DNA from: Actinomycetota bacterium
GTDB taxonomy: Bacteria; Actinomycetota; Actinomycetes; Actinomycetales; Microbacteriaceae
Direction of reading: 5' to 3'
Length of the DNA stretch: 64,000 bases
Assembly (NCBI GenBank): GCA_020160915.1
Contig: JAIUPK010000001.1
Span: forward strand, 279,645-343,644
In this document: positions 1-62,159 of the stretch, in pieces
Layout of the letters: every line of letters begins with the position of its first letter
Position numbering within the stretch: position 1 is the stretch's first letter
Translations under genes and position numbers: made by a program
The notes under the pieces: generated by a model
The model's database searches: none
What the model was told of the DNA's origin: nothing
Seen by the model: only the letters and a program-made list of their open reading frames with translations

Positions 1-303
1 GTCGGCTCCCGCGTTGATACCCACCTCGATGGCCTGCTCCTCGACCGACGCCGACAGCAGCACGATGCGCACATCACCGATCGAGGAGTCGGCGCGAACG
101 GCACGGCAGACGTCGACGCCGCTCATCTCGGGCATCGCTATGTCGAGAATCGCGAGATCCGGGTGGTGGGTGCGGATCGCCTCGAGCGCCTCGGCGCCGT
201 CCGAGGCGACTGCCGCAACGGTCAGCCCCGCCTTCTTGACGGCAATTGTCACCAATTGCCTGATGTCAGCGTCGTCGTCGGCGATGACCACGGTGTGGGT
301 CAT
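1..303 (-). CDS. Response regulator, receiver domain (partial, 3' end outside window)
   Basis: The visible part is 101 codons from ATG at 303; the C-terminus lies beyond base 1. It is a CheY-like receiver: an acidic pocket ADDDAD near residues 8-13, the phospho-acceptor in LDIAMPEMSG (Asp near residue 54) and the switch serine in LLSAS near residue 84. What follows the receiver (output domain or none) cannot be seen. The ATG overlaps the stop of the upstream receiver gene by 4 nt (ATGA), so it is the next gene of the polysaccharide-like operon that starts at 6240. A histidine kinase may lie further downstream, outside this window; that is inference. Confidence 0.9.
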   Translation of the reverse strand, partial: MTHTVVIADDDADIRQLVTIAVKKAGLTVAAVASDGAEALEAIRTHHPDLAILDIAMPEMSGVDVCRAVRADSSIGDVRIVLLSASVEEQAIEVGINAGAD

Positions 304-668
304 GGGATTCTCCCGAGGGTTGTGAGGTCGGCAAGCACCTGGCGCACCTGCGCGCCGGTGAAGGGCTTCGGCAGGATCGCGTCGGCTACGGGGAAGTCCG
401 AGGCGTCGAGCACGGAGGCGACGACGATCGCGCACTCCGGCACGACCTCGCGAAAGCGGGTGATGAGTTCCCAGCCGCCCATGCCGGGGAGCATGAGATC
501 GATCACGGCGAGATCAGGCGGCAGGTCGGCGGCAGCGGACAGTGCCTCCTCACCCGTGCCGACGACGTGCACGGCGCATCCGGCCTTCTCGAAGTACTGG
601 CGCAGCAGACCGGCCTGGTCTGCACTGTCCTCCACGACGAGTACCTGATTCCGATGTGACCCTGTCAT
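300..668 (-). CDS. Stand-alone receiver-domain response regulator
   Basis: 122 residues, just the length of one receiver domain with no DNA-binding output. Key residues are present: acidic pair in VVEDSAD (near 12-13), phospho-acceptor Asp in VIDLMLPGMGG (near 57) and conserved Lys in LPKPFTG (near 103). Such CheY-like single-domain proteins usually act by protein contact or as phosphorelay intermediates. The ATG at 668 was chosen because it overlaps the stop of the small membrane protein gene by 4 nt; an in-frame upstream extension to 743 exists but would overlap that gene. The stop overlaps the next receiver gene's ATG. Confidence 0.9.
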   Translation of the reverse strand: MTGSHRNQVLVVEDSADQAGLLRQYFEKAGCAVHVVGTGEEALSAAADLPPDLAVIDLMLPGMGGWELITRFREVVPECAIVVASVLDASDFPVADAILPKPFTGAQVRQVLADLTTLGRIP

Positions 669-880
669 GCGAAGAACACCTGCCTCACGACGACAAGTGC
701 TGCGACCAGCACCAGGGCCACCACTGCCTTCAGCCACAACCACCGTTCGGATCGACGATCCCTGTCGATCTCCTGCTGGATGAAGACCGCCCCGGGGTTT
801 CGGAGGTCCGTCGGCACCACGACCGCCGCGGCCGAGTGGCGGGGCTCATGGCCTTCCGCGTGCTTCATGGCCATTCTCAT
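665..880 (-). CDS. Small single-span membrane protein, unknown function
   Basis: 71 residues, not recognised as a named family. A polar N-terminal half of about 48 residues is followed by one hydrophobic helix (about residues 49-68, rich in V, A and L) and a short C-terminal tail, so a type II-like single-span membrane protein is likely. The ATG at 880 overlaps the glycosyltransferase stop by 4 nt; in-frame ATGs at 874 and 868 are alternatives. Its place between a membrane glycosyltransferase and receiver proteins suggests an accessory subunit of the synthase. That is inference from context only. Confidence 0.7.
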   Translation of the reverse strand: MRMAMKHAEGHEPRHSAAAVVVPTDLRNPGAVFIQQEIDRDRRSERWLWLKAVVALVLVAALVVVRQVFFA

Positions 881-2373
881 GCGGAGACCCTTCCGGTCTT
901 CTCGGTCTTGTCCCAGGAGGTCTCCGCCCCGCGGAACTCCTTGATGTAGGAGTCGACCGTGATCGCGCAGAGGATCGGTCCGTAACCGACGACGTAGACG
1001 AGGATCGGCGTGAGCACCCGGCCCACGATCGTTCCCTCCACCACCTTGGTCAGCCACCCGCCGAGCATCGACAACGAGATCCAGAAGTAGACGAAGACCG
1101 TCCACCAGAACACCGCGGTGTCGGTGAGCACTATTCCGAACGCCCCCGGCACGATCTCCTCGAACGGCCCGGGGAAGAAGGCCGTGAGCATCACGATCAT
1201 CGAGATGATTCCGGGGAAGAACAACGCCTCGACGAGCGTGCGCCTGCCGATCCCCCAGTCGAGCTGGAGCGAGAGGAAGATCGAGAAAAAGTACGTGCAG
1301 GCGGCCAGCACCCACAGCCCGCGGAACGCGACATTGGCCAAGTCGCTTCCCACGAGCAGGAGGCCGAGGAGGCCCAGTGATGACAGGATCATGACAAGAG
1401 GCAGCAATTGGATGCTGAACCAGGCAAGACCGAAACCCAGCGTTCCCAGACCGTGACCCTTGTTGGGCCGGAACCACATCGCTCGGTAGCGAGCGGTGAT
1501 CTCCACATTGCCGCGAGCCCACCTGAGACGCTGCTTCCACAGCGCTCGCACCGTGCCGGGTTCCTCTGCTAGCACCACGGCGCGGGGATCGAACACCACC
1601 CGTTTGCCTCGCAATTGGGTCTCGAATGTCGTGACGGTGTCCTCGGCGAACCCACTGGTGTCGATCACGCTTCCCATCGCCACGAGATTCTCCCGGGTGT
1701 GCAACTGTGCCCCTCCGGCGAGGCAGGCCTGCGCGCCGAGTACGTTCTGGGCGCGCCGGGCGGCGGCTTGGGCCATCACGTACTCGATGGCGATGAAGCG
1801 AGTGAGGTAGTTCTTGCGGATGCTGCCCTCACGCACGTAGGCGGTCACAGCTCCGACCTCCGGGTCGACAAGATGCCGAGTGAGTTTACGCAGCGAGTCG
1901 GGCGCGTAGATTACGTCGGCGTCGGTGATGAGCACAGCTTCGGCCCAGTCCTCGCCCAGAACGATGTTCAGTCCGTGATTGAGTGTGTGCGCCTTGCCCT
2001 CACCCCCGTGCGACCGCCGAAGGTGGTACACGGCACCCGGGTAGCGTGCGGCCCGATCCTCGACGACGTCGGCCGTGGCATCCGTGCTGGCATCATCGAT
2101 GACGTAGACACGTAGTCGGGCACGCGGGTACTCGAGTGACATGAAACGGTCGATGGTTGCGCCGATCACGGCCTCTTCGTTCCACGCGGGCACGAGAACG
2201 GCAACCCGCGGCAGATAGGGCGCGGACTTGCGATAGTTGTTGATGCTTCCGTGAAAGGGAATCGCCAGGAAAAGCACCAGCGTCGTGATGACCGGCATGG
2301 CCCCCGAGATCACGAGCAGCAGCAGGAACACTGTGAGGATGTTGTAGCCGAGGGTGGCCCAGTCGATGGTCAT
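877..2373 (-). CDS. Processive family-2 glycosyltransferase, PgaC/BcsA-like membrane synthase
   Basis: 498 residues. One or two N-terminal membrane helices (about 8-40), then a GT-A domain with VPAWNEE (62-68), DDASTD (93-98), DAD (151-153), the acceptor acid in FAEDT (244-245) and QRLRW (281-285). Five or so C-terminal membrane helices follow. The D,D,D,QxxRW set is the signature of processive beta-glycan synthases (cellulose, hyaluronan, poly-GlcNAc). The family predicts polymerisation of a UDP-sugar and export through the membrane; the actual sugar cannot be read from sequence. Deacetylase domains encoded upstream would fit a GlcNAc polymer. ATG at 2373 overlaps the PHP gene stop by 4 nt. 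Confidence 0.88.
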   Translation of the reverse strand: MTIDWATLGYNILTVFLLLLVISGAMPVITTLVLFLAIPFHGSINNYRKSAPYLPRVAVLVPAWNEEAVIGATIDRFMSLEYPRARLRVYVIDDASTDATADVVEDRAARYPGAVYHLRRSHGGEGKAHTLNHGLNIVLGEDWAEAVLITDADVIYAPDSLRKLTRHLVDPEVGAVTAYVREGSIRKNYLTRFIAIEYVMAQAAARRAQNVLGAQACLAGGAQLHTRENLVAMGSVIDTSGFAEDTVTTFETQLRGKRVVFDPRAVVLAEEPGTVRALWKQRLRWARGNVEITARYRAMWFRPNKGHGLGTLGFGLAWFSIQLLPLVMILSSLGLLGLLLVGSDLANVAFRGLWVLAACTYFFSIFLSLQLDWGIGRRTLVEALFFPGIISMIVMLTAFFPGPFEEIVPGAFGIVLTDTAVFWWTVFVYFWISLSMLGGWLTKVVEGTIVGRVLTPILVYVVGYGPILCAITVDSYIKEFRGAETSWDKTEKTGRVSA

Positions 2374-3089
2374 CGCCGCGCCTCCGTCAGCATCGCCGGC
2401 ACGCGCTCGTACCGTCCGACCTCCGACGCCTCGTGCGCGTCGGTGGAGGCGACGACCACCGCGCCAGCTGCAAGCGCGACCCCGAGCGAGCGAGGGCCGG
2501 GGCAGCCCCATTTCTCGTTCACCTCGATGAGGGTGGATGTGTCGGCAGCAGTCGAGGCCCAGAGGTCGAGCTGGGCATCCGACAGATCGTCCTCGCTGAG
2601 CCCGATCTTGGGAAGGATCGAGAAGCAGTGCGCGAGCTGGTTTCCCGGCGCTCGCCTCATCGCACCGACGAGGGCACCGACGAGCATGTCGAGCGCATCG
2701 GCGACCGGCAGTCCGTTGTCGAGTCGCTCTCGAACCAGGTGCGGGAGCACCGGTCCGTCGGAGCCGGGGAACTGATGGTCCGCGATGACTATGGCGTCAA
2801 CGCCCTCCAGTGCGGAGGGCACATCCAGAGTCCCTGACGAGTCGAGGATCTTGGCCTCGACTCCCGTCAGCACCGTGAGACCCTCGGGCACCGGCTGTGC
2901 TGCAACGGCGGAGACGAACTCGGGCACCCAGGTCGTGGAGACCCTGACGTGATCGGTCAACCGGATGACACTGAGACCGGCCCTGGCAGCCGCCGCGATG
3001 TTGTCGGCAAGGCTCGAAACGGCATCGTCGGAGAACGTCGAGTGGACGTGATAGTCCCCCGACAGCTCTGGATGCCGTGGCCGGGTCAT
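2370..3089 (-). CDS. PHP-domain metal-dependent hydrolase
   Basis: 239 residues. Metal-binding motifs of the PHP (polymerase and histidinol phosphatase) family are visible: HVHS near residue 14, LTDHV near 46, Glu in TGVEAK, His in IADHQF, and STDAH near 215. Known PHP proteins hydrolyse phosphoesters such as histidinol phosphate or phosphotyrosine on capsule kinases. In this operon a regulatory or precursor phosphatase for the glycan pathway is plausible but unproven. Start ATG at 3089 overlaps the ATP-grasp stop by 4 nt. It shares only the fold with the second PHP gene at 39825-40679. Confidence 0.82.
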   Translation of the reverse strand: MTRPRHPELSGDYHVHSTFSDDAVSSLADNIAAAARAGLSVIRLTDHVRVSTTWVPEFVSAVAAQPVPEGLTVLTGVEAKILDSSGTLDVPSALEGVDAIVIADHQFPGSDGPVLPHLVRERLDNGLPVADALDMLVGALVGAMRRAPGNQLAHCFSILPKIGLSEDDLSDAQLDLWASTAADTSTLIEVNEKWGCPGPRSLGVALAAGAVVVASTDAHEASEVGRYERVPAMLTEARR

Positions 3090-4072
3090 GCGCGACTCTC
3101 TCCCGGCTGCGGGTCGGCCGCGAGCACGATCTCGGCCGGATCCAGGAAGATGTCTTCGAGGAAGCGCACGTTGGCAAGCTCCCGGAACGGCAGTCGCACG
3201 GGCAGCGGGCGACCCAACGCGAGATCCACCGCGAGGGAGGGCATGTCGACGCCGGCCGCGATCGTGAGGGGCATCGCACCCGGGAACCTCGGGTTGACCT
3301 CGAGCAGGGCGGCCACCCCGGCGCTGTCATAACGCAGCTGCACGTTGGCGACCCCCACGAGTCCGATGGCTTCGGCAACCGCGGCAGCCGTCTGCTCCAA
3401 CTCGGTTGAGTGCAGGGTGTAGCCCGCGATGGAAACGCCCGAGTCGACCTTCGTGCGACTGCGGGGAACGGCGGCGATGACCGCCCCGTCAGCTCCCGCG
3501 AGAACATCGACCGAGAACTCGTCACCCGGGAGGTTCTCCTGGATGATCAGCGACTCATCGGGGCCGATCGCCTCGAGGGCGGCGCGGTCCTCGACCAGAC
3601 GCACACCGCGGGAGCCCGCGCCGCTGCGGGGCTTGACGATCACCGGGAAGTCCCAGTGCGACGCGATGGCCTCGGCGGTGAGCAGGGCGGTCGTGGGAAC
3701 CCGCAGCCGACCCTCGCAGCGTTGGGCGAGCATCCACTTGTCGAGGCAGACCTCGAGGGTGTCGATCGAGGGGGCCGCGAGTACGGCCCCGAGCTCGGAT
3801 CGGCGAAGCGCCAGCGGTCGCAGTTCGAAGTCGACGGTCGACACGACCACGTCGATGCCGTCGGAAGCCACCACGTCGCGAACCGAGTCGACGAATCCGT
3901 CGGCGACAGCGGGCGGCACGATCCGTCGTCGATCCGCGGCAACGAGGTAGAGACCGCTCGCCCAGCGATCCATGTCGGCGGCGAACACGTCAATGTCGTC
4001 GCGAGCAAGCAGCGAGCGGATGACGGCCACCCCGGCCGGGCCGCCGGCTCCCGTCACGAGTACACGAGTCAT
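3086..4072 (-). CDS. ATP-grasp domain ligase (CarB-like)
   Basis: 328 residues. An N-terminal Rossmann-like lobe opens with VLVTGAGGPAG, then comes an ATP-grasp core with PVIVKPRSGAGSRGV (about 145-160), a QENLPGDEFSVDVL segment and the Mg-binding LLEVNPRFPG near 268. The CarB-related ATP-grasp group activates a carboxylate with ATP and joins it to an amine or another nucleophile. Members often sit in capsule or sugar-nucleotide clusters. Here it lies directly after two deacetylase genes, so ligation of a carboxylate to a freed amino sugar is an attractive but speculative role. ATG overlaps the upstream fusion gene's stop by 4 nt. Confidence 0.85.
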   Translation of the reverse strand: MTRVLVTGAGGPAGVAVIRSLLARDDIDVFAADMDRWASGLYLVAADRRRIVPPAVADGFVDSVRDVVASDGIDVVVSTVDFELRPLALRRSELGAVLAAPSIDTLEVCLDKWMLAQRCEGRLRVPTTALLTAEAIASHWDFPVIVKPRSGAGSRGVRLVEDRAALEAIGPDESLIIQENLPGDEFSVDVLAGADGAVIAAVPRSRTKVDSGVSIAGYTLHSTELEQTAAAVAEAIGLVGVANVQLRYDSAGVAALLEVNPRFPGAMPLTIAAGVDMPSLAVDLALGRPLPVRLPFRELANVRFLEDIFLDPAEIVLAADPQPGESRA

Positions 4073-5136
4073 CGGCTGCCCTCCCCCGAGCTGGTCTGCG
4101 CCTGCGGACGCTTGCGCACCGGCATGGACATGTCGGCGGTCTCGCGGAGGATCTCGAGCGGCTCGACGCTCTCGCCGGCACCAAATCGCGACCAGTACCG
4201 CGCCGTGGCGAGCACGAACTCGGGGTCAAGATAGTTGCGGATCTGGGACTGCGATGCGAAGCACGACAGCAGAGCGAGCTTCTTCTCGGTGAACCCGTCG
4301 ATCGAGACGAACCGGGTGGGTCTGAAGTCCACTGTTGACGACGGACTCTGAAAGCAGGCGACCGTGTCTACCGAGCGGGTCGCGACGACCGTCGCCTCGT
4401 GAGTGGCGCGGTGGTCTTGGTGGCGATCGTGGATCGAGTGGGTGTAGACGATCGTGGGATTCACCTCGCGCACGACGCGTTCGATGATCTGCACGGTGGG
4501 ACCGGTGTTGGTGATCTCGGTGTCGACCAGGTCTTCGAGGAACAGCCGCGCGCCCAGGAGGTCGGCGGCGGCGAGCGACTCGTGCTGGCGATCTTCGGGC
4601 GAACCACCCCTACCGCCGCGGGAGAGGGTCAGGATCACGACCTGATCGCCCGACGCGCGATGAGAGGCGAGGATGCCGCCGACACCGATCTCGACGTCGT
4701 CGGGATGCGCACCCACGGCGAGAACGTACTCGCGCGGGCGGCCGGGGTTGTGTCGCGCACGACCCTCCTCAGCCAATCGGAGCACCGTCGCCACCAGATG
4801 CCCGGAATCGATCGGCTTGGTGATGAACTCGTCGGCCTGGCCGCGAAGGGCGCTGACCGCGTAGTCGACCGAGACATGCGCCGTCATCACGATAACCGGC
4901 AGATCGGGCCGGTCGGCGCGAAGCACGGCGAGTAGTTCGAGGCCAGTCATGCCCGGCATCTCGATGTCGGTGACCACGACATCGGGATTGAACTGGGCCA
5001 TCGCGCGTTGTGCCTGAGGCGCGTCGCCCACCGCCATCACCACGCACTCGGCTCGTCGCTCCAGGAGGGCGCGGGTGTACTGGGCCACATCGGGATCGTC
5101 GTCGACGACGAGCACCCGATAGGCACCTTCGGACAT
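4069..5136 (-). CDS. Receiver domain fused to PIG-L/LmbE-type deacetylase (copy 2)
   Basis: 355 residues with two domains. Residues 1-125 form a full receiver (VDDDPD near 11-16, phospho-acceptor Asp57 in TDIEMPG, Thr in VMTAH, Lys in ITKPID). Residues 135-345 form a PIG-L deacetylase with AHPDD (143-147) and HQDH (239-242), the zinc-binding set of GlcNAc-amide hydrolases such as MshB and LmbE. Phosphorylation would be expected to control the enzyme directly. The ATG at 5136 sits 6 nt after AGGGGG; a GTG at 5139 is the alternative. The upstream neighbour at 5218-6240 has the same architecture and clearly arose by duplication. Confidence 0.9.
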   Translation of the reverse strand: MSEGAYRVLVVDDDPDVAQYTRALLERRAECVVMAVGDAPQAQRAMAQFNPDVVVTDIEMPGMTGLELLAVLRADRPDLPVIVMTAHVSVDYAVSALRGQADEFITKPIDSGHLVATVLRLAEEGRARHNPGRPREYVLAVGAHPDDVEIGVGGILASHRASGDQVVILTLSRGGRGGSPEDRQHESLAAADLLGARLFLEDLVDTEITNTGPTVQIIERVVREVNPTIVYTHSIHDRHQDHRATHEATVVATRSVDTVACFQSPSSTVDFRPTRFVSIDGFTEKKLALLSCFASQSQIRNYLDPEFVLATARYWSRFGAGESVEPLEILRETADMSMPVRKRPQAQTSSGEGSR

Positions 5137-5217
5137 CACGTTCCCCCTCGTGGTAACTCTAGGGCCGGCTCACCGGCATGGCGCCGCGGCCCAAACTCAG
5201 GCGCTCGGCCGCGCGAT

Positions 5218-6240
5218 TCAGCTGGATCCGGCGACATCTGCCGAGTCGCGGACGATCTCGAGCGGCTCACAGTACGAGCCCTGACCGTATCGGGACCACG
5301 AACGGGCCGTGGCGAGTGCGAAGTCGGGTTCGAGGTAGTCGGGGCGATCCGCGGCGTCGCGGGCGAAGCATCCGAGCATGGCCAGTTTCTTGTCGGTGAA
5401 CCCGTCGATGGTGACGAACCGGTTGGGACGGAACTCGACTGTTGCCGCGGTGCCCTGGAAGCACGCGACCGTGCGTACGTTGGCCGTCGTCACGAGTGTC
5501 GCGTCGTGCACGGCGCGGTGATCCTGGTTGTCGTCGTTCTTGCTGTGCGTGTAGACGATGGTGGGCTTCAGCTCCTCGACCACCTTGCGGATGATCTCAG
5601 CGATCTGCGGCGAGGTCGCCAAAGCGTGGCCGGGAATGTCCTCCAGCACGACCTGGGCACCGATCACGCCGGCGGCCTCCGAACTCTCGGTCCACGCACC
5701 CTGGATGCCGGTGTCGCGCATGCCGCGCGACAGGGTGAGGATCGTGACCGAGTCTCCCGCAGCGGCGTGGGCCGCCAGAATGCCGCCGACCCCGACCTCG
5801 ACATCATCGGGGTGCGCGCCGATCGCGAGCACGACCTGCTTGCGCGGGCCGGATGCCGCGGACTCGCGCGCCTTCGTAGCCAGCCGCGTGACGTGCCCGA
5901 CCAGATCGGCAGACGTCACCGGCTTGGTGAGGAACTCATCGGCCTGACTGCGCAGGGCGGTCACCGCGTAGTCGAGGGAGGCGTGGGCTGTCATGACGAT
6001 GACGGGGATGCCGGGGCGCAGCTCGCGGATCACGCCGATGAGCTCGAGGCCCGAGGCACCGGGCAGCTCGATGTCTGTGATCACCAGATCGGGCACGAAG
6101 TCGAGCACTGCTGCGCCCACCGCTCGCGGATCGGCGATCGTCAGGACGACACAGAGTTCCCGCTTCTCGAGCACCGTCTTGGAGAACAGCGCGACATCAG
6201 GATCGTCTTCGATGACGATGACTCTGAATGGTTCGGACAT
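5218..6240 (-). CDS. Receiver domain fused to PIG-L/LmbE-type deacetylase (copy 1), first gene of operon
   Basis: 340 residues. Receiver at 1-120: EDDPD (11-15), phospho-acceptor Asp56 in TDIELPG, Thr84 in VMTAH, Lys106 in LTKPV. The PIG-L domain follows a short linker: AHPDD at 142-146 and NQDHRAVH later. All catalytic and phosphorylation residues are intact in both copies, so neither looks degraded. ATG at 6240 is preceded by AGAGGGGGT. The 81-bp gap to the second copy contains only that gene's ribosome-binding site, while every later junction in the operon overlaps. The promoter probably lies in 6241-6329. Confidence 0.9.
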   Translation of the reverse strand: MSEPFRVIVIEDDPDVALFSKTVLEKRELCVVLTIADPRAVGAAVLDFVPDLVITDIELPGASGLELIGVIRELRPGIPVIVMTAHASLDYAVTALRSQADEFLTKPVTSADLVGHVTRLATKARESAASGPRKQVVLAIGAHPDDVEVGVGGILAAHAAAGDSVTILTLSRGMRDTGIQGAWTESSEAAGVIGAQVVLEDIPGHALATSPQIAEIIRKVVEELKPTIVYTHSKNDDNQDHRAVHDATLVTTANVRTVACFQGTAATVEFRPNRFVTIDGFTDKKLAMLGCFARDAADRPDYLEPDFALATARSWSRYGQGSYCEPLEIVRDSADVAGSS

Positions 6241-6329: not shown

Positions 6330-7124
6330 TTACAGCGGTTTCGTGCCGAATCGCCGCAGTGCGAGGGCCGGATTGATGGCGCGCACCGACGCGATGCGGT
6401 GGGTGTCGATGTGGGCAACCGCAACGCCGTTCTCTTCGCCGATCGTGACGAGCTCGACGCCCATCGGGTCGAGCACCATGCTGTTGCCGACCCCGACCGG
6501 TGGCGCGTGGTCGGCGGCCGCCACGAACACCGTGTTCTCCAGCGCCCGCGCCGTGAGCAGTGTGCGCCAGTGGTGCTCCTTGAGTGGTCCGCGCACCCAT
6601 TCGGCCGGCACCAGAAGCAGGTCGGCACCAGCGTCGACCAGACGACGGCTCACCTCCGGGAAGCGCACGTCGTAGCAGGTCTGCAGGCCCACGGTGAAGC
6701 CCTCCCAGGCGAACGTCTGGGGCTCGTCAATAGGGCCGGGGGTGACCCAGTCCGATTCGCGCTGCCCGAACGCGTCGTACAGATGCATCTTGCGGTACAC
6801 GGCAGCGACGGCCCCGGTCGGGGTGACGGCGACGACCGTGTTGCTGACGTGGGTGGCATCCGCGGTCTCGATGAAGCCGGCGACCAGGTGGATGCCCAGC
6901 CGCCTGGCCACGTCGCCCAACCCGGTCACGAACTCGCCGTCGAGGTGCTGAGCCGCGCGCAGCCAGCCCTCGTCGGGCTCGGGAGTGAAGTAGGACGAGT
7001 ACTCGGGCAGCAGCACGAGGGTTGCGCCGCGGGCCACGGCGACCTCCGCCAGCTCGGCGATGGTGCTCAGGTTGGCCGCGGTGTCGGCGCCGGGCGCGAA
7101 CTGCGTGACCCCGAGACCTGCCAT
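6330..7124 (-). CDS. Carbon-nitrogen hydrolase (nitrilase/omega-amidase superfamily)
   Basis: 264 residues, full length for the family. The Glu-Lys-Cys triad is visible: Glu in LLPEYS near 41, Lys in YRKMHLYD near 109 and Cys in LQTCYDVRFPE near 142. These enzymes hydrolyse amides or nitriles in the cytoplasm; omega-amidase/Nit2-like members act on alpha-ketoglutaramate-type substrates. The substrate cannot be fixed from sequence. The ATG at 7124 shares one base with the nadE stop, so the two are cotranscribed and this gene may contribute to nitrogen or amide salvage alongside NAD synthesis. Confidence 0.88.
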   Translation of the reverse strand: MAGLGVTQFAPGADTAANLSTIAELAEVAVARGATLVLLPEYSSYFTPEPDEGWLRAAQHLDGEFVTGLGDVARRLGIHLVAGFIETADATHVSNTVVAVTPTGAVAAVYRKMHLYDAFGQRESDWVTPGPIDEPQTFAWEGFTVGLQTCYDVRFPEVSRRLVDAGADLLLVPAEWVRGPLKEHHWRTLLTARALENTVFVAAADHAPPVGVGNSMVLDPMGVELVTIGEENGVAVAHIDTHRIASVRAINPALALRRFGTKPL

Positions 7125-60687: not shown

Positions 60688-61014
60688 TCAGCCCTCGCCG
60701 CCGCCCGCGGGCAGAGCTGCGATGAGCGGGTGGTCCTTCTTCAGGACGCCCACCTTGGATGCGCCACCGGGCGAGCCGAGGTCGTCGAAGAACTCCACGT
60801 TGGCCTTGTAGTAGTCGGCCCATTTGCCGGGCAGATCGTCTTCGTAGTAGATCGCCTCAACCGGGCAGACCGGTTCGCATGCACCGCAGTCGACGCATTC
60901 GTCGGGCTGGATGTAGAGCATGCGCTCGCCCTCGTAGATGCAGTCGACCGGGCATTCGTCGATGCACGCGCGATCCTTGAGATCGACACAGGGCTGGGCG
61001 ATGACGTACGTCAC
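60688..61014 (-). CDS. fdxA: Seven-iron ferredoxin
   Basis: 108 residues. Cys pattern for one 3Fe-4S and one 4Fe-4S cluster: [21 protein letters not shown] (in part) near 9-28 and [20 protein letters not shown] (20 residues) near 40-59. Low-potential electron carrier, positional counterpart of mycobacterial FdxC. GTG start overlaps the upstream deacetylase stop (GTGA), and the stop abuts dapC, so the three genes are one transcript. Confidence 0.95.
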
Positions 61015-62159
61015 TTCTGATCAGGACCTTCCGCGGCAGGGATTCCTATCTTACCGCGACGCCAGCGTCCGTCTTGCGGCCACGCCAGCACCACGCCCGC
61101 GATGACGACCGGAGCGATCAGGAAGACGTAGCCGACGACGTCGTCAGGCACCAGCACAGAACCACCGGCCGAACCGAGCGAGAGCAGCAGGATCGCACCG
61201 AGCAGACCGACTGCTGCGCAGGCAGCGACGACCCTGCTCTCGAATACCAGGCTGAGTCCCGTCAGCAGCGCCGCCGTGATCACCACCGTCGCGACGATGC
61301 CCCAGGGCACCGTTACTCCGAGTACGTCAACCGTTGCCCGGTGCGCGACCGTGAGCACACTTCCCGCGAAGGCACCGATCACCAGGCCGAGAACGCTCGA
61401 CCCGATCCGCGACGGCAGGCTCATCGACGAGAATGCCCGGGCCGGGCGGAGCCGGTCGAAGCGCTCGGGTTCGCCCAGCGGCCGCGGCTCGCCCGAGGAG
61501 AGCGAGTAGGTATCGCCCTGCACCAGCACCTGGGTGCGGTGCGCCGCCAACGCGGCAGCCTTGCGCTCAGCCGCTGCGGGATCGTTCACGACCACCGCCG
61601 CCCTGCTCCTGGGGGTGATCACGTAGAACGGAACGCCGATCACCTCAGCCGCCGTGCGGGTCGCCTCGTGGGCGCGTACATGGTCGGGATGCCCATAGCC
61701 GCCGTCTGCGGCATAGCTCACCACTACGTCGGGCTCGACGTCGATGAGCACGGCAGCAATGTCGGCGGCAACCTCGCCCGCGTCCGCCGCCGTCAGCGAA
61801 TCGGGGTCGAGGATGCCGCTGGCCTGCGCACCTCGCCTGCCCCAGCTCATCCCGGAGTCGACGTACCGCCGCGGCTCACGCCCCTGCCAGCGAGCGTCGG
61901 GATTGCCCAGGATGCGGTGGTCGGTGACACCGAGAATCCGCAACGCCTCGGCCAGTTCGGCTTCGCGCGCGCTGCCGAGCTGCTCGGGCGCGTCGGCCAG
62001 ATGCTGGAGGTCGTCGGGGATCACCTCGCCGCGTTCGCCTCGCGTGAGGGTGAGCACTGTCACTGCGGCACCGCGATCGATCAGCGTGGCGATCGTCGCC
62101 CCGGTCGAGATGGACTCGTCGTCGGGATGCGCGTGAACAAAGAGCACTCGCTCGGTCAC
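61011..62159 (-). CDS. mshB: MshB-like GlcNAc-inositol deacetylase with C-terminal membrane domain
   Basis: 382 residues. PIG-L domain in the first 270: AHPDDES near 10-16, [18 protein letters not shown] and [11 protein letters not shown] near 155 match mycothiol deacetylase MshB, which removes acetate from GlcNAc-inositol. Known MshB is about 300 residues and soluble; here about 110 further residues contain four hydrophobic helices ([17 protein letters not shown] start, [20 protein letters not shown], in part, end). GTG at 62159 keeps the family N-terminus. First gene of the fdxA-dapC transcript. Confidence 0.85.

Follow-up and report, generated by a model that had tools for sequence, protein, structure and literature searches.

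Two-component control of bacterial glycans is usually seen as transcriptional or as acting through c-di-GMP. Operons of the pga/ica type join a membrane family 2 glycosyltransferase (GT2) and a small membrane partner to a deacetylase, which is an exported enzyme of the CE4 type, and in Gram-negatives they also include a tetratricopeptide repeat (TPR) protein. Here we describe a minus-strand operon at one end of a 64,000-nucleotide stretch of a Microbacteriaceae genome (contig JAIUPK010000001.1, positions 279,645 to 343,644; the whole stretch is called the window). It encodes two fusions of a receiver domain to a PIG-L deacetylase domain (RR-PIGL1 and RR-PIGL2), an ATP-grasp ligase, a PHP-domain hydrolase, a membrane GT2 synthase, a one-helix membrane protein, two free receivers and a histidine kinase. 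The deacetylase system is real and conserved; its phospho-control and its tie to a glycan pathway are both probable. With the pga/ica operons it shares a membrane GT2 with its small partner, a deacetylase and, in Pseudomonadota, a TPR protein. It differs from them in that the GT2 scores far below the PgaC/IcaA cut-off, the deacetylase is of the PIG-L type and fused to a receiver, and an ATP-grasp ligase, a PHP protein and a kinase are present in addition.

Receiver domains linked to metabolic enzymes have been described before, among them fusions to BcsA-like GT2 enzymes in methanogens, and response regulators with enzymatic output likewise carry an enzyme in place of the DNA-binding domain, one case being a glycan-type glycosyltransferase (PMC5847659, in the parts drawn on here). 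The window system is set apart from these by its output, a PIG-L deacetylase, and by a single operon that unites its kinase with a four-enzyme pathway. The PIG-L/LmbE metal motif is HXD1D2 + H, and the deacetylases MshB and BshB have the same domain and the same metal site as the fusions, but only the fusions carry a receiver (PMC4101496, likewise in part). In Campylobacter jejuni, the Cj1438C amidoligase and Cj1435 belong to a set of ATP-grasp enzyme, phosphatase and GT2 that puts an amide-linked group on a surface glycan; the available sections of that account mention no deacetylase or two-component control (PMC11800379).

Searches of an open-access library brought up no description of receiver-PIG-L fusions or of this set of genes; the response-regulator censuses of 2006 and 2010, which lie outside the papers covered, may list the fusion. 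The terms receiver and response regulator are absent from the available portions of the LmbE review (PMC4101496), as are PIG-L and LmbE from those of PMC5847659 and PMC9239204. An earlier reading of the window, made from the sequence alone (the sequence-only reading), knew of no described pathway with this combination, and none was found in that library.

Gene Content and Layout of the Operon

The operon is a run of nine genes on the minus strand, from position 6240 to base 1 of the window and on to 1.8 kb below it. The genes are listed with protein lengths in amino acids (aa), and the Pfam assignments are matches above the curated cut-offs.

5218..6240, minus strand: RR-PIGL1, receiver and PIG-L deacetylase fusion, 340 aa (Pfam Response_reg and PIG-L)
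4069..5136, minus strand: RR-PIGL2, receiver and PIG-L deacetylase fusion, 355 aa (Pfam Response_reg and PIG-L)
3086..4072, minus strand: ATP-grasp ligase, 328 aa (Pfam ATP-grasp families)
2370..3089, minus strand: PHP-domain hydrolase, probably a phosphatase, 239 aa (Pfam PHP)
877..2373, minus strand: membrane GT2 synthase, 498 aa, with DD/DxD/ED/QxxRW (Pfam GT2 families)
665..880, minus strand: one-helix membrane protein, 71 aa (no Pfam match)
300..668, minus strand: stand-alone receiver a, 122 aa (Pfam Response_reg)
-71..303, minus strand, crossing window base 1: stand-alone receiver b, 124 aa (Pfam Response_reg)
-1837..-68 in window numbering (L003:11808-13577), minus strand: membrane PAS histidine kinase, 589 aa (Pfam PAS, HisKA and HATPase)

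An 81-bp gap separates RR-PIGL1 from RR-PIGL2, and the remaining seven of the eight junctions are 4-base overlaps. The sequence-only reading had described eight minus-strand genes with seven junctions, six of them ATGA overlaps. All eight genes are present, with their domains supported by Pfam except for the one-helix protein; the six overlaps within the window are of the ATGA type, and the seventh junction is the 81-bp gap. That reading had also pointed beyond base 1 for a histidine kinase, and the 589-aa PAS kinase was found there as the ninth gene. It overlaps the receiver b gene by 4 bases, outside the window, and is the candidate partner kinase; a simple hydropathy rule gives five hydrophobic stretches in its N-terminal part. 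None of the operon's receiver proteins has a Pfam match to a DNA-binding domain, which fits a direct enzymatic output.

The receivers of the two window fusions score 85.5 and 103 bits against Pfam Response_reg. In RR-PIGL2, the phospho-acceptor D57, T85, K107 and the acidic residues are present, as is the PIG-L motif H144-P-D146-D147 with H242. RR-PIGL1 has equivalents of all of these, and the PIG-L motif is intact in both window copies. Across 20 aligned fusions, D57, T85 and K107 of the receiver and H144, D147, D241 and H242 of the PIG-L part are invariant.

Distribution and Conserved Gene Order

The scan of named genomes took the best 80 loci, and the distribution given here is a lower bound. 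Tallies refer to the fusion clade, set off in the tree by a branch with 100/99 support, as represented by 62 fetched loci; the window's own copies stand outside the 62, and L071 (a repeat of L040), L090 (a repeat of L049) and L092 (truncated) were excluded. Genes in the fetched loci were called with a simple purpose-made gene caller, and at most five or four candidates per genome were scored in two of the searches of genome samples.

Of 60 genomes sampled from the same family, 11 have full-length fusions, with the window's genome among them (14 of 60 for any match at E <= 1e-20), and a sample of the class gave a fusion match at E <= 1e-50 in 9 of 345 genomes, again including the window's own. 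Carriers include Leifsonia, Glaciihabitans, Microbacterium, Leucobacter, Cellulomonas, Blastococcus and Thermoleophilia, among Pseudomonadota Legionella, Marinicella, Burkholderiales and Rhodospirillales, and also one Myxococcales genome. Several of the carriers are metagenome assemblies. The full PIG-L motif is kept in 59 of the 62 fusions.

Genes for PIG-L, ATP-grasp, PHP and GT2 are consecutive on one strand in 30 of the 62 fusion loci, mostly in Actinomycetota, and an ATP-grasp gene was seen in 52. In one locus (L113), the genes from RR-PIGL2 to the kinase stand as they do in the window, and every junction is a 4-base overlap. The sequence-only reading had asked whether the gene order recurs in other genomes, and it does; the conserved four-gene order is more than chance. 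In the family sample, the GT2 subfamily (E <= 1e-100) was found in seven of 60 genomes, all seven among the 11 with a full fusion. In the class sample it was found in six of 345, five of which have the fusion, while the sixth (G217) has an operon in which a receiver-less PIG-L gene is followed by ATP-grasp, PHP and GT2. Where a cluster has no GT2 (G055, L052, L084), the GT2 was found elsewhere in the genome. The comparison supports PIG-L, ATP-grasp, phosphatase and GT2 being members of one pathway. Distances for PIG-L, ATP-grasp and GT2 are correlated (0.81-0.84), a figure that has no control protein and carries little weight. The genes around each displaced GT2, judged by their starts, gave no hint of polymer identity; in L142, an ATP-grasp gene adjoins the displaced GT2.

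Receivers and the Histidine Kinase

Five key receiver residues were compared (the acidic pair at positions 12-13, D57, T/S85 and K107), and a kinase was counted as present if it reached at least 100 bits to a purpose-built kinase profile inside the fetched stretch. All key residues are kept in each of the 48 loci with a kinase, and at least one is lost in eight of the 14 loci without one (Fisher 8.9e-7, uncorrected for kinship). The PIG-L motif is intact in all eight fusions with altered receivers. Among the 14 kinase-less loci, two (L080, L085) end at a contig end near the fusion, one (L044) was fetched in part, and two (L082, L086) have weak kinase matches of 38 and 66 bits. The enzyme is thus kept as the switch begins to decay, and decay was seen only where no kinase is nearby. 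This pattern is the strongest evidence for the kinase acting through the receiver, and it gives comparative support to control by phosphate. The direct phospho-control claimed in the sequence-only reading is thus favoured by this pattern and by the lack of a DNA-binding match; the effect of phosphorylation on the enzyme is a step that we infer.

The most degenerate receivers are those of L093:8749-9897 and L095:8890-10053, where the PIG-L part is intact and no kinase is in view. These are apparently natural losses of the switch.

The ATP-grasp Ligase and the Phosphatase Position

The ATP-grasp protein matches six Pfam entries (ATPgrasp_Ter, ATP-grasp_3, CPSase_L_D2, ATP-grasp_4, Dala_Dala_lig_C and PylC-like_N). 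Its best NCBIfam matches are of the PRK12767 type, below the equivalog cut-offs, and its best match among solved structures is 2pn1. The PHP protein conserves H14, H16, H47, E78, H105, H154, D217 and H219, the histidines, Glu and Asp that we take to be the metal-site ligands.

There are 52 fusion loci with an ATP-grasp gene: 37 have PHP, seven have a histidine phosphatase match and no PHP (one of them, L047, a weak match of 33.5 bits) and eight have neither. A PHP gene or a histidine phosphatase match accompanies ATP-grasp in 44 of 52, and in the window the PHP gene adjoins the ATP-grasp gene. All five histidine phosphatases examined match PF00300. Variants in Pseudomonadota have a TPR protein and, usually, the histidine phosphatase where PHP is missing. 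A third arrangement is seen in a clade of receiver-less PIG-L proteins, in which eight of 12 loci with ATP-grasp and GT2 carry, by motif, a HAD-type gene and a UDP-GlcNAc 2-epimerase gene; of the remainder, L120 has the epimerase only, and L105, L106 and L115 have neither. Family searches of the receiver-less loci confirmed HAD in three and placed the epimerase above the cut-off in one.

The sequence-only reading had assigned no role to the PHP protein. Its replacement by unrelated phosphatases suggests that its own role is that of a phosphatase, and the finding of three unrelated phosphatase folds (PHP, histidine and HAD) beside related ligases suggests a shared dephosphorylation step. In the C. 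jejuni capsule, an ATP-grasp domain ligates serinol phosphate or ethanolamine phosphate, after which Cj1435 takes off the phosphoryl group by hydrolysis (PMC11800379, in part). By analogy with this pair, the ATP-grasp enzyme of the window may ligate a phosphorylated acid.

The receiver-less clusters have features of their own. A PIG-L gene with GT2, ATP-grasp, UDP-GlcNAc 2-epimerase and a HAD-type gene is found in L097-L101, L104, L107 and L126, and L126 and L099 also have exosortase-like genes. In some of these clusters, PIG-L is accompanied by an exosortase-like gene and by a small protein whose start resembles a signal sequence, and such clusters may attach a glycan to exosortase substrates. 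In L105, L106 and L115, the PIG-L protein stands beside ATP-grasp and GT2 and has, by eye, hydrophobic stretches resembling a membrane anchor at its N-terminus, replacing the receiver; L105 and L115 have separate two-component genes.

Proposed Mechanism

The operon, the kinase, the intact sites, the gene order and the joint occurrence are read from sequence; the substrates, the acyl group, the re-acylation, the order of steps and the polymer are what we infer. We propose, with moderate confidence, that these genes form a two-component system in which the enzyme controlled directly is an amino-sugar N-deacetylase feeding glycan synthesis, with the ATP-grasp ligase and the phosphatase re-acylating the amine. 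The membrane PAS histidine kinase would phosphorylate the receiver part of the PIG-L fusions, and free receivers a and b may be phosphate sinks or relays. Phosphorylation would switch the cytoplasmic, zinc-type N-deacetylase, so that the amine of an N-acetyl amino sugar is freed in a glycan precursor or in the nascent chain. The ATP-grasp ligase would join a carboxylic or amino acid, probably phosphorylated, to the freed amine, the PHP phosphatase would then take off the phosphate, and the membrane GT2 and its one-helix partner would build and export the glycan.

If this is true, the kinase and the deacetylase fusion put sugar charge and acylation under direct phospho-control. The cell may thus tune its surface sugars by enzyme phosphorylation and not by gene switching. 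A broader idea, offered tentatively, is that phospho-switched N-acyl exchange on glycans in response to a signal is widespread, with a deacetylase-receiver fusion, re-acylation by ATP-grasp and trimming by a PHP, histidine or HAD phosphatase, all without new transcription. The three unrelated phosphatases beside related ligases point to one chemical step common to several bacterial phyla.

Several observations weigh against the proposed mechanism. The C. jejuni ligase is a TupA-like ATP-grasp enzyme that uses a sugar carboxylate rather than a sugar amine (PMC11800379, in part), and the Pfam matches of the window's ATP-grasp protein include no TupA-like entry. No phosphatase is in view in eight of the 52 ATP-grasp loci, two of which (L080 and L085) reach the contig end. 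The eight altered receivers fall into three groups (Legionella; Alphaproteobacteria; Occultella with Serinicoccus) in a table that is uncorrected for kinship, and their loss is partial: D57 is still present in seven of the eight, being missing only in L095, and in two Legionella proteins and the alphaproteobacterial L089 only a residue of the acidic pair is lost. An OmpR-type regulator adjoins the cluster in L078, L096 and L058, so transcriptional control may also occur. Lastly, five genomes (G008, G022, G037, G044 and G262; G022 is 87% complete) keep a fusion together with a kinase and have no match to GT2 or to ATP-grasp at E <= 1e-30.

Fusions without the Synthase

RR-PIGL1 groups with the fusions of L066, L040, L041 and L065 (100/100 support), whose operons consist of a fusion, receivers and one or more kinases, without ATP-grasp, PHP or GT2. 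Three more genomes (G407, G408 and G409), in which GT2 alone of these enzymes was searched for, gave no match to it at E <= 1e-20. Because these short operons and genomes bear fusions and lack pathway enzymes, the fusion has some use without the synthase, and the job of RR-PIGL1 is probably different or wider. The sequence-only reading had taken the whole operon to make a modified polymer. This stands in so far as PIG-L, ATP-grasp, phosphatase and GT2 behave as one pathway, and is weakened by the RR-PIGL1 clade and by the five genomes without GT2 and ATP-grasp.

The same observations would suit two units lying side by side, the kinase and RR-PIGL1 acting on another envelope or small-molecule substrate and RR-PIGL2 serving the four-enzyme glycan pathway. 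We consider this unlikely, since both fusions belong to one gene run in the window with a single kinase in view, and most fusion loci carry the enzymes, as with ATP-grasp in 52 of 62.

In L040:9392-16000, a short fusion operon is followed by a tandem array of several histidine kinases, all of one type; the same contig, as L071, shows four kinase genes.

The GT2 Synthase and the Nature of the Product

The sequence-only reading had reported an intact D,D,D,QxxRW set in the GT2, and the motifs were located at DD 93-94, DxD 151-153, ED 244-245 and QxxRW 281-285. With these motifs, which are conserved, and its membrane helices, the protein is predicted to be a processive membrane GT2. Of the 41 loci in which a GT2 of the subfamily was called, 32 have a gene for a one-helix protein that begins near the GT2 stop codon; L045-L047 and L073 (divergent GT2) and L094 (truncated GT2) are left out of this tally. 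In many related clusters, GT2 (or PHP) is followed by a small protein of similar kind; the proteins encoded after GT2 in L093 and L095 have no Pfam match. One cluster (L072:11981-15002) has two tandem GT2 genes of the window subfamily.

In Pseudomonadota, a TPR protein accompanies GT2 and the receiver-PIG-L fusion, and all six of the proteins examined match TPR families. Their C-terminal half reads by eye as an outer-membrane beta-barrel, with one weak DUF2490 match below the cut-off. A GH81 gene lies beside GT2 in L. drozanskii, and a GH16 match follows GT2 in L079. The TPR/barrel proteins, GH81 and GH16 point to an exported glycan and not to its identity.

In place of a polymer, the product might be a glycolipid or a small amino-sugar compound, with the GT2 making a short or single linkage. 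The substrates of PIG-L enzymes do include small glycosides, for example GlcNAc-inositol and GlcNAc-malate (PMC4101496, in part), and no separate export gene was recognised in the listed Actinomycetota clusters, of which few neighbours were put through family searches. This alternative is improbable given the intact QxxRW, the barrel-like C-terminus of the Pseudomonadota TPR proteins, and the best NCBIfam model of the GT2, that of the PgaC/IcaA polymer synthases, although the score is 123.6 against a cut-off of 422.3 bits.

A further alternative, and a quite improbable one, is that RR-PIGL1-type proteins have lost PIG-L catalysis and use that part as a sugar- or protein-binding output. Two short-operon relatives, L039 (HPSD) and L041 (HPND), have lost the motif Asp proposed as the general base (PMC4101496, in part), and the end branches of the RR-PIGL1 group are rather long in the tree (0.18-0.37 against a median of 0.16), but the full motif is kept in 59 of 62 fusions and in both window copies.

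Neighbouring Genes and Related Proteins

A nitrilase-family gene (6330-7124, minus strand) lies 89 bp upstream of RR-PIGL1; it resembles deaminated glutathione amidase, below the cut-off for that enzyme. In 13 other distinct loci, a homologue adjoins the fusion on its upstream side or the kinase on its downstream side, in L037 with an intervening gene call of 96 aa. Since the gene is present in 47 of the 60 family genomes, shared chromosomal position explains this adjacency at least equally well, and with its likeness to deaminated glutathione amidase the nitrilase was rejected as a sure member of the system.

The fusions were also considered as mycothiol or bacillithiol deacetylases, and this was rejected. 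They score 58.3 and 92 bits against BshB1, where the cut-off is 182.5, and MshB is not among the best 25 of the 86 and of the 102 NCBIfam families that they match. A separate MshB-like PIG-L gene is present in the window (61011-62159, minus strand; 175.8 bits, below the cut-off of 224.35), and mycothiol synthesis is therefore probably independent of the fusions.

A search of plasmids with the fusion gave three matches, all limited or almost limited to the PIG-L part, and none of them covers 80% of the query. In L042:7801-9285, a SpoIIE phosphatase domain is fused to a receiver that shares 56% identity over 121 residues with the RR-PIGL1 receiver, giving an RR-PIGL1-type receiver with a different enzyme output. 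A few kb past the kinase, in L003:1841-9052, the genes read, from their sequence alone, like a teichoic-acid or capsule cluster, with a nucleotidyltransferase, an ABC transporter pair, glycosyltransferases and a CDP-alcohol transferase labelled by eye.

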